From Terriglobia bacterium (lineage in GTDB: Bacteria; Acidobacteriota; Terriglobia; Terriglobales; Acidobacteriaceae), in the NCBI GenBank assembly GCA_020073465.1, contig JAIQFC010000026.1:1-64000 (forward strand): a stretch of DNA of 64,000 bases. The letters are read 5' to 3'. Below are positions 13,298 through 30,257 of the stretch, piece by piece (within the stretch, counting starts at the first letter, position 1; every line of letters begins with the position of its first letter). Under the pieces are notes generated by a model. It did not search any database. It was not told where the DNA came from and saw only the letters and a list, made by a program, of their open reading frames with translations. The position numbers and the translations under genes are program-made.

Positions 13298-13500
13298 CGC
13301 CCCTTTCGGGGGCTGGCTCTTCCCTCTGCCGTTACCCACGGCTTGCGCCGTGGGCTGCATTCTTACGCCGCTTCGCGGCTCAATGCGGATACGACCTAAC
13401 ACTGAAGTGGAGGGCCATTGTCAGAGGTTCCTCTACGAGACCGGGGCTCAAAATGGCTGGGCTTCGCCCGAGCCGGGACAGCCGAGGCGGCTGTCGCTAC
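13298..13500. repeat. Palindromes of families D and F
   Basis: At 13298-13380: a CGCCCCTTTCGGGGGC hairpin, CCCACGGCTTGCGCCGTGGG and GCCGCTTCGCGGC, the same three-hairpin order as 5952-6038. At 13475-13500: GGGACAGCCGAGGCGGCTGT followed by CGCTAC (family F), preceded by a GGGCTTCGCCC hairpin. Family F also occurs at 20719-20745 and inside selA at 29271-29296. The 13160-13511 spacer holds no gene. Confidence 0.85.
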
Positions 13501-13511
13501 GTGGTCCGTTA

Positions 13512-20625: not shown

Positions 20626-20745
20626 GATGCTTCGCTCCGCCTGAAGAACGGCTGCGCTCAGCATGACGCCGGCGTCGTGGTGGCGGACACATTCTAACCT
20701 ACACTTCCATCCGGGGTAGAGACAGCCGAGGGCGGCTGTCCCTAC
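20626..20745. repeat. Family C copy 3 and family F copy 2
   Basis: CTTCGCTCCGCCTGAAGAAC followed by GGCTGCGCTCAGCATGACGC (20626-20670), then GAGACAGCCGAGGGCGGCTG followed by TCCCTAC (20719-20745). The spacer between the riboswitch and the acyltransferase stop has no gene. Confidence 0.8.
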
Positions 20746-20760
20746 ATGGATCGTGGTGGT

Positions 20761-28760: not shown

Positions 28761-30257
28761 GTGAAGAGTGCTGCAAAATCGGAACTTTTTCGCCGGTTGC
28801 CGTCGGTGGACGAACTTCTGCGGACGGCGGCTGTAGCCGAGCTTGCGGCCAGTTCCGGGTCTGCCACGGTGACGGATGCGGCGCGGGCGGTGGTAGGCAG
28901 GCTGCGCGAGGAAATTGCTTCCGGGCTGCTCGACGAGCAGTCGCTGGATGTGGCACTGGCGGGAGTGCCGGGTGCGATCGAACAGCAACTGCGCAGGATG
29001 CTCGGCTACTCGTTGTGCGCGGTGATCAACGCTACCGGAGTCATCCTGCATACCAATCTGGGGCGCGCTCCGCTGGGGGCCGCGGCGATCGAGCGTGTTC
29101 GCGAGACTTCGGCGGTCTATTCGAATCTGGAGTTCGAGCTGGAGACCGGAGAGCGCGGGAAGAGGGATGTTCATGTGGAACGGTTGTTTCGCCGGCTGCT
29201 TTCAGACGAGGGCGCGGTTGCACGGGCCGCCGGGCTTCGCCCCTTCGACACGCTCAGGGCAGGCTCAGGCGGGACAGCCGAGGCGGCTGTCTCTACGCGA
29301 GCAGATGTTTCTACGATCGTTGTGAACAACAATGCGGCGGCAGTGTTGCTGGCGCTCAACACGCTGGCCGAGGGCGGAGAGGTCATCGTTTCGCGCGGGG
29401 AGCTGGTGGAGATTGGGGGATCGTTTCGCATTCCGGACGTGATGGCGAAATCGGGTGCGATTCTGCGGGAGGTCGGGACTACTAACCGGACACGGGTTGC
29501 CGATTATGAGCGAGCGATCAACGAGCGCACGCGGCTGTTGTTGCGGGTGCACCGCTCGAACTTTGAGATTACCGGTTTCACGGAGCAGGCTTCCATTGCG
29601 GAACTCGTGGAGTTAGCGCGCAGGCGCGGCTTGCCATTGATGGAGGATCTGGGCAGCGGAGCGCTGGTGGACTTGCAGTCTTTTGGCATCAGCGGCGAGC
29701 CGAGTGTGCTCGACAGTTTGCGCAGCGGAGTGGATGTGGTGACCTACAGCGGGGACAAGCTGCTGGGGGGGCCGCAGGCGGGGCTGATCAGCGGGCGGCG
29801 TGAGCTGGTTTCGCGGATGCGCGCGAATTCCCTGTTTCGGGCGTTGCGTGTCGACAAGCTTACCTATGCGGCGCTGGAGGCTACGCTTCTGGCTTACGTA
29901 AAACACAATCATGACGCCATCCCGACGCTGCGCATGATGCGGCTGACCAAGGAGGAAATCGGGCGGCGCGCGCAGGCGATGACGGGGCAAGTCAAGTCCT
30001 CCAAGTTGAAGGTTGAAGTGATCGATGGCGACTCGGTCATCGGGGGTGGGGCGGCGCCGTCTTCCGTGCTGCCGACACGCCTTCTGGCGTTGAGCTGCGA
30101 AGATCTCGGAGCAGACGAATTGGCGGCGCGGCTGCGCGCGTCGGATCCGCCGATCATCACGCGGGTGGAGGAAGGGCGGGTGCTGCTCGATCTGCGGACG
30201 GTGTTTCCGGAGCAGGATGGGATGATTGCGGCTGCGCTCCATCGGATCGCGGCTTGA
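28761..30257 (+). CDS. selA: L-seryl-tRNA(Sec) selenium transferase, with an in-frame repeat insertion
   Basis: SelA is the PLP enzyme that converts Ser-tRNA(Sec) to Sec-tRNA(Sec). The PLP lysine is K333 in VTYSGDKLLGGPQAGL; other family segments are NATGVILHTNLGRAPL (90-105), VVNNNAAAVLLAL and HRSNFEITGF. Start is GTG 28761. The 498 residues exceed the usual length of about 460-470 by about 30. The excess lies at residues 153-183, encoded by palindromic repeat sequence (29217-29309), just before VVNNNAAA. The frame is intact. selB, tRNA-Sec and selD are not in the window. Confidence 0.93.
   Translation: MKSAAKSELFRRLPSVDELLRTAAVAELAASSGSATVTDAARAVVGRLREEIASGLLDEQSLDVALAGVPGAIEQQLRRMLGYSLCAVINATGVILHTNLGRAPLGAAAIERVRETSAVYSNLEFELETGERGKRDVHVERLFRRLLSDEGAVARAAGLRPFDTLRAGSGGTAEAAVSTRADVSTIVVNNNAAAVLLALNTLAEGGEVIVSRGELVEIGGSFRIPDVMAKSGAILREVGTTNRTRVADYERAINERTRLLLRVHRSNFEITGFTEQASIAELVELARRRGLPLMEDLGSGALVDLQSFGISGEPSVLDSLRSGVDVVTYSGDKLLGGPQAGLISGRRELVSRMRANSLFRALRVDKLTYAALEATLLAYVKHNHDAIPTLRMMRLTKEEIGRRAQAMTGQVKSSKLKVEVIDGDSVIGGGAAPSSVLPTRLLALSCEDLGADELAARLRASDPPIITRVEEGRVLLDLRTVFPEQDGMIAAALHRIAA
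29217..29309. repeat. Palindromic repeat inserted in frame within selA
   Basis: The segment contains GGGCTTCGCCC, a family C fragment (CCCCTTCGACACGCTCAGGG) and a family F hairpin GGGACAGCCGAGGCGGCTGT at 29271-29290, then CTCTAC. The F part differs from the intergenic copy at 13475-13500 by one base in 26. It adds about 31 codons without stop or frameshift. Confidence 0.85.

Follow-up and report, generated by a model that had tools for sequence, protein, structure and literature searches.

In an acidobacterial genome, the selA gene contains, in frame, a GTAG-class REP (a GTAG-tagged main hairpin with a minor hairpin) in which a second repeat, family C, is nested. The explanation favored here, with a probability of roughly 0.8, is that REPs of the RAYT type land widely, that harmless in-frame copies persist in permissive loops, and that the selA loop has been refilled several times. 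The DNA analyzed (the window) comprises bases 1-64000 of one contig from a 5.91 Mb genome of 67 contigs with an estimated completeness of 99.99%. Its relevant features are given below; R1 is a covariance model built from 21 REP copies of the same genome, none of them from selA, purL or the DUF1385 gene.

28761-30257, + strand: selA, 498 amino acids, GTG start; TIGR00474 at 550 bits (cut-off 268), PF03841 at 452 bits, Z 48.3 against 3w1i
29208-29309, + strand: extra SelA loop, residues 150-183, missing in Aquifex SelA (from alignment and pLDDT)
29229-29242, + strand: minor hairpin of the selA element (GCCGGGCTTCGCCC), read from the sequence; a comparable minor hairpin adjoins most other copies
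29242-29265, + strand: family C repeat CCTTCGACACGCTCAGGGCAGGCT, 24 nt, nested and in frame, delimited by an exact gap in the nearest relative
29271-29297, - strand: REP main hairpin, with its GTAG tag on the - strand (CTAC at 29293-29296 on the + strand); R1 match at 29250-29298, - strand, 47.7 bits, E 3.3e-9
13452-13502, - strand: further copy of this REP family, away from large ORFs (no ORF of at least 250 amino acids over it); R1 at 65 bits, but one of the 21 training rows
20706-20747, - strand: weak additional REP of the same family; R1 at 28.2 bits, E 4e-4

SelA and its extra loop

The product is identified as SelA by its family score, its SelA fold and the invariant lysine of the SGDK motif, the residue that carries PLP; columns D332 and K333 are invariant in a 44-row alignment. 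The genome also encodes the SelA partners SelB (382.6 bits, cut-off 242) and tRNA-Sec (64.5 bits, cut-off 47, with a second match at 49.9 bits). The closest selA genes in the named collection belong chiefly to metagenome-assembled Acidobacteriota, including Candidatus Sulfotelmatobacter.

In a phmmer comparison with Aquifex SelA (3w1h), query residue 149 pairs with 133 and residue 184 with 135, leaving residues 150-183 as an extra segment directly ahead of VVNNNAA. The loop joins the helix that follows RGKRD to the strand toward VVNNNAA, and its position in the sequence would put the insert near the active core. An AlphaFold model of the window SelA (44 rows, mean pLDDT 86.1, pTM 0.81) aligns with 3w1i over 387 residues with an rmsd of 1.8. 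In this model pLDDT falls below 50 for residues 151-179, which are flanked by a helix (137-148) and a strand (183-188), as well as for 217-222 and 269-272. The very low confidence predicts that the SelA loop is disordered.

It could be imagined that the insert has been domesticated as a functional part of SelA, for example one that contacts tRNA or another subunit. The insert is in frame in many species and stands just ahead of a conserved strand, but it is highly variable in length and sequence, is absent from many relatives and has a pLDDT below 50, which together make domestication very improbable. The first-pass annotation had suggested that the insert may matter for the SelA decamer or its RNA; the low pLDDT and the differing sequences of relatives lend this no support, while its observation that SelA is about 30 residues longer at exactly this point is confirmed.

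The composite repeat in selA

The palindrome GGGACAGCCGAGGCGGCTGTCTCTACG at 29271-29297 differs from the copy at 13475-13501 by one mismatch in 27, with 0 matches in shuffled controls. This agrees with the 25 of 26 identical bases first reported for a family F hairpin translated within selA, and that description holds. The palindrome reads as GTAEAAVST in the selA frame, which stays open across the insert; the insert also encodes the peptides AAGLRPFDTLR and AGSGGTAEAAVSTR. It is probably translated as part of the enzyme.

In the genome there are 12 occurrences of the family C pattern CCTTCGACNNGCTCAGG, against 0 of its reversed control. In L001, the nearest relative, the REP element occupies the same selA site but is without the 24-nt family C piece. 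Since another relative, L002, has a family C-like piece, gain in the window lineage and loss in L001 are both possible. The family C fragment had originally been described as lying beside the hairpin; it is indeed present, but it is nested in the same element and corresponds to the 24 nt absent from L001.

Family C pieces are found inside the main REP hairpin at several other loci (L126 at 1845-2110; L226, L230 and L232; L184, L213 and L220), and two of the three REP copies at L126 have such a piece at the hairpin tip, as if the family C repeat inserted into the tips of REP hairpins. The window selA differs from these loci, with the piece in the minor hairpin and not in the main one.

The REP family and its transposase

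The 20-nt REP core is present in the genome in 27 exact and 13 one-mismatch copies distributed across many contigs (reversed pattern, 0 and 0). The main hairpin is common to all 21 aligned copies, with a minor hairpin behind it in most, and the tags are GTAG (17), GTGG (3) and GCAG (1). This is the layout of GTAG-class REPs, and a palindrome with GTAG at one of its ends, the genome-wide copies and a RAYT gene flanked by REP are all found here. Of 45 genomes from the genus, 42 contain the REP when a slightly wider exact pattern is used, and the reversed control gives 0 in each. Sequence differences between relatives suggest that the REP is mobile.

Eighteen Y1_Tnp matches were detected in the genome, some of which are pieces of one gene. 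R1 was run on 17 of these loci; the remaining one, L113, is part of the window and so of the R1 scan described below. Among the 17, L126 has three R1 matches around its Y1_Tnp gene, and L122 has one copy more than 1 kb away. The L126 product scores 75 bits against the REP-associated tyrosine transposase model NF047646, below the cut-off of 80, and 25.8 bits against PF01797, above the cut-off of 23. This RAYT, whose own gene is ringed by REP copies, most likely moves REPs in trans.

A different palindromic repeat (GGCACGCCTTTGAAGGCGTGCC) is present in four copies at 2492-2915 of the window, adjoining the Y1_Tnp match at 2067-2381 on the - strand; the two may represent another transposase and the REP family that belongs to it.

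The SelA loop in related species

The span from RGKRD to NNNAAA ranges from 35 to 75 residues in the parsed SelA sequences, and is 65 in the window. In relatives the loop contains the same peptide in the forward direction (LRPGGTAEAAVSTRA), the other orientation (GTAASAVPPEPALSERSEPKGRSPA), other palindromes or, in many cases, nothing. The loop of L019 contains a short tandem repeat (EELKSEELKSEEVTSEKMKS) in place of a palindrome, and the SelA loop therefore seems open to any in-frame DNA.

R1 was used to scan 87 selA loci, including the window (637 kb). At E <=0.01 there are 45 matches, of which 25 are in selA (in 25 different loci) and 20 lie elsewhere (514 kb), including the training row at 13452-13502. 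At E <=0.05 the selA matches increase to 27, with the addition of L063 (E 0.012) and L152 (E 0.035). All 27 are within the loop, 26 as located by script and L153 by sequence; the script placed the loop in 83 of the 87 loci (all except L065, L072, L153 and L164). Outside the loop, R1 has no match in selA in about 118 kb from the 87 loci. The 25 REPs detected at E <=0.01 are nearly evenly oriented, with 12 running with the gene and 13 against it. Among same-genus loci, 16 of 30 have a loop REP at this threshold, these 30 being the best-scoring of 81 genomes searched, and R1 has no matches in the ten most distant selA loci (L071-L080, from other phyla or acidobacterial classes). The density of matches (25 in about 5 kb of loop versus 20 in 514 kb elsewhere) is no proof of a targeting preference, because copies are shared by descent, inserts lengthen the loop and the other DNA is largely coding.

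Repeat matches of the loop are also more frequent than chance. Segments from the loop match repeats elsewhere in 22 of 72 cases, versus 6 of 360 equal-length segments of the same genes; the target was 0.50 Mb of DNA in which every selA had been masked, and loci chosen for REP were left out.

Loop fold energy was set aside as an insert marker because it does not distinguish inserts from coding DNA rich in GC. Of 59 scored loops, 9 have a better fold energy than any control segment, but the window loop is equalled or bettered by 39 of its 129 controls.

Short repeats are prone to false joins, most of the relatives are metagenome bins and the selA loop of L070 contains an NN gap, but in-frame loop REPs recur in many separately deposited assemblies, and a false join would seldom leave a whole SelA. 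An assembly error at the repeat is accordingly a most improbable source of the insert; the recurrence of the pattern in assemblies deposited separately makes misassembly in the window unlikely.

Reading frame of the REP copies

The F core and its reverse complement are almost identical. Of the copies in coding sequence, 21 have the strict F core (ten in selA, four in purL and seven in the DUF1385 gene), and all 21 are read in a single phase, T-A-x-x-A-V (TAEAAV or TAASAV), which suggests selection on the peptide, although the count is suggestive only, because copies related by descent are included. A loosened core pattern adds six matches, one of which lies in the DUF1385 loop of L200 and shares this phase; the other five, at other places in purL or DUF1385, are due to chance. 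The G copies, whose core is one base longer, are less uniform (phase 2 in four, phase 1 in one and phase 0 in four). In the GTAG-first orientation, the TAG would close one phase.

Strong hairpins within ORFs occur in bypass elements, and the selA hairpin might likewise remain untranslated, with the ribosome skipping it or the RNA losing it. However, the shared phase of the 21 strict-core copies would be needless for skipped sequence, and the window frame is open through the insert. Ribosomal bypass and an intron were set aside on the grounds that phase is kept, and non-translation is considered highly unlikely.

One insertion or several

A SelA tree with SH-aLRT support was built by a quick search from 72 of 77 candidate rows after removal of the loop columns; L029, L065, L070, L153 and L164 are missing, because parsing yielded no open frame that contained both anchors. 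The five insert states require 20 changes on this tree, compared with a minimum of 4 and an average of 24.1 for shuffled labels; the states were assigned by eye, and in-place inversion and new insertion are indistinguishable in these counts. The labels of L025, L063 and L148 are without R1 backing at 0.01, and L021 (E 3e-4) and L152 (E 0.035) were labelled 'none/other' despite R1 matches. Weak inner branches are common (34 of 69).

Window and L001 are supported sisters with F forward in both, and the REP occupies an identical place in L001, which makes the window copy older than their split. It dates at least to their shared ancestor, and shows no recent insertion. L026 and L027 are supported sisters with opposite REP orientations. 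The branches with support >=95 alone force at least two changes for F forward, one for F reverse, six for G forward and three for G reverse. Since multiple changes of state are forced by supported branches, the group as a whole calls for several fillings or replacements. For F reverse, the tree is compatible with one origin.

It is also possible to envisage a single old insertion passed on by descent, with the present variety arising from decay, in-place inversion and REP exchange and little new insertion. The element common to window and L001, the clustering of F forward on the tree (0 of 500 shuffles are as low) and the single orientation of the DUF1385 copies fit such a history, but the supported branches force at least two F-forward, six G-forward and three G-reverse changes, and in purL the number of changes is close to that of shuffled labels and the near relatives L166 and L193 differ (see below). 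A single insertion is unlikely, though it is the most plausible of the alternatives to repeated filling.

The first-pass annotation had named a segment shared by descent with other SelA proteins as the observation that would count against a translated repeat. This applies in part, to the sister species, where the REP sits at the identical site. The insert is nevertheless not ordinary SelA sequence: many related SelA sequences are without it, or have the opposite orientation or a different palindrome.

purL, DUF1385 and other genes

Gene context was examined by translation around 30 of the 40 copies in the genome, with profile searches of six ORFs. At three of these 30 loci the REP is within the open frame of a recognized protein: selA, purL (NF002290, 923 bits) and a DUF1385 gene (PF07136, 262 bits). 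At two more (L087 and L096, near 1501-1520) it supplies the C-terminus, in one case of an amino-acid permease and in the other of a DAHP synthase. The broader suggestion that repeats of this genome become protein sequence is therefore supported by genes other than selA. At L108, near 1501-1520, a REP is just ahead of the probable start of a gene that is presumably TatD-like. Another repeat family has a 65% match that overlaps a 549-amino-acid ORF with a malectin domain, perhaps by chance.

Loci from the genus were compared for both genes. The purL loop has 39-69 residues between anchor motifs (27 of 30 loci parsed), and the DUF1385 loop has 53-77 (30 of 30). At E <=0.01, purL (L165-L194) has a REP in the gene at 9 of 30 loci, two with the gene and seven against it, and DUF1385 (L195-L224) at 13 of 30, all in one orientation; every one of these is in the loop, with L169 and L182 placed there by reading the sequence. 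Both orientations are thus seen in only two of the three genes. Because they share one orientation, the DUF1385 copies may represent one old insertion event. Some purL loops feature a different palindrome (CCCCGGACGC...GTCCGGGG).

On a purL tree of 30 rows, seven states set by eye require 17 changes, versus a shuffled mean of 17.9, and the near relatives L166 and L193 differ in their filling. As the changes about equal those of shuffled labels, the filling of purL changes faster than the tree resolves.

Comparison with known palindromic elements

Pseudomonas REPINs are mostly extragenic, unlike the copies in selA, and consist of pairs of inverted REPs. REPINs and RAYTs of that genus (PMC3116915) form a system of short mobile palindromes and RAYT genes, and the selA REPs are likewise short palindromes with a link to RAYT.

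REPs in genes were reported in 2013 by Di Nocera et al. (PMC3733652), who describe palindromes tagged with GTAG or CGTC in ORFs, tie the GTAG type to RAYT genes, and mention different REPs at about the same site in recB of two Xanthomonas species. The tagged palindromes in ORFs and the link between GTAG and RAYT are like those seen here; the cases described there differ from the present ones, in which a single genus shows many fillings of the selA and purL loops, involving several palindromes and both orientations. Acidobacteria are mentioned there in connection with TIR-flanked transposases.

The palindromic elements of Rickettsia (Ogata et al. 2000, 2002, as summarized in PMC10969869) are also in-frame palindromic repeats in protein genes, a feature shared with the REPs described here, and were judged compatible with protein structure. 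They are about 150 bp in length and, where tagged, carry CGTC (RPE-4 and RPE-6, according to PMC3733652), whereas the present elements have about 45-50 nt, GTAG tags and a flanked RAYT. An element of about 50 nt with GTAG falls outside the Rickettsia families in both length and tag.

The apparent novelty is that, within one genus, several palindromes have repeatedly filled the same loops in either direction, and that the F type keeps to one frame. Searches confined to an open-access library found no earlier report of such repeated two-way loop filling, nor any report of GTAG REPs with RAYT, or of REPs in genes, for Acidobacteriota.

Conclusions

The refilling of permissive loops by RAYT-type REPs may be pictured as follows. 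RAYT-driven transposition would deliver REPs to many sites, and most insertions in genes would be lost. The survivors would be those that keep the frame, introduce no stop, encode a harmless small-residue peptide and lie in a loop tolerant of length change, so that the retained inserts may be nearly neutral. In related soil Acidobacteria, the SelA loop is one such place and has received REPs several times, of more than one type and in either orientation, as has the purL loop. REPs in such loops may later be replaced or nested into.

A more far-reaching proposal, tentative and with the odds somewhat against it, is that a few core-enzyme loops (selA, purL and perhaps DUF1385) are reusable docking sites that are filled, replaced and inverted by RAYT-borne palindromes. 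Because the near-self-complementary core gives the same frame and approximately the same small-residue peptide either way, the REP core might be pre-adapted to be harmless in genes, and REPs could then be a standing source of protein sequence in the genus.

These observations add GTAG REPs with RAYT, and intragenic REPs, for Acidobacteriota. They also provide a natural replicated experiment on the conversion of mobile DNA to protein, in which the same loops are empty, filled forward, filled backward or differently filled in enzymes that are still needed. Two questions become testable: do REPs select these sites or are they simply tolerated in them, and is the uniform frame a product of selection on the peptide?
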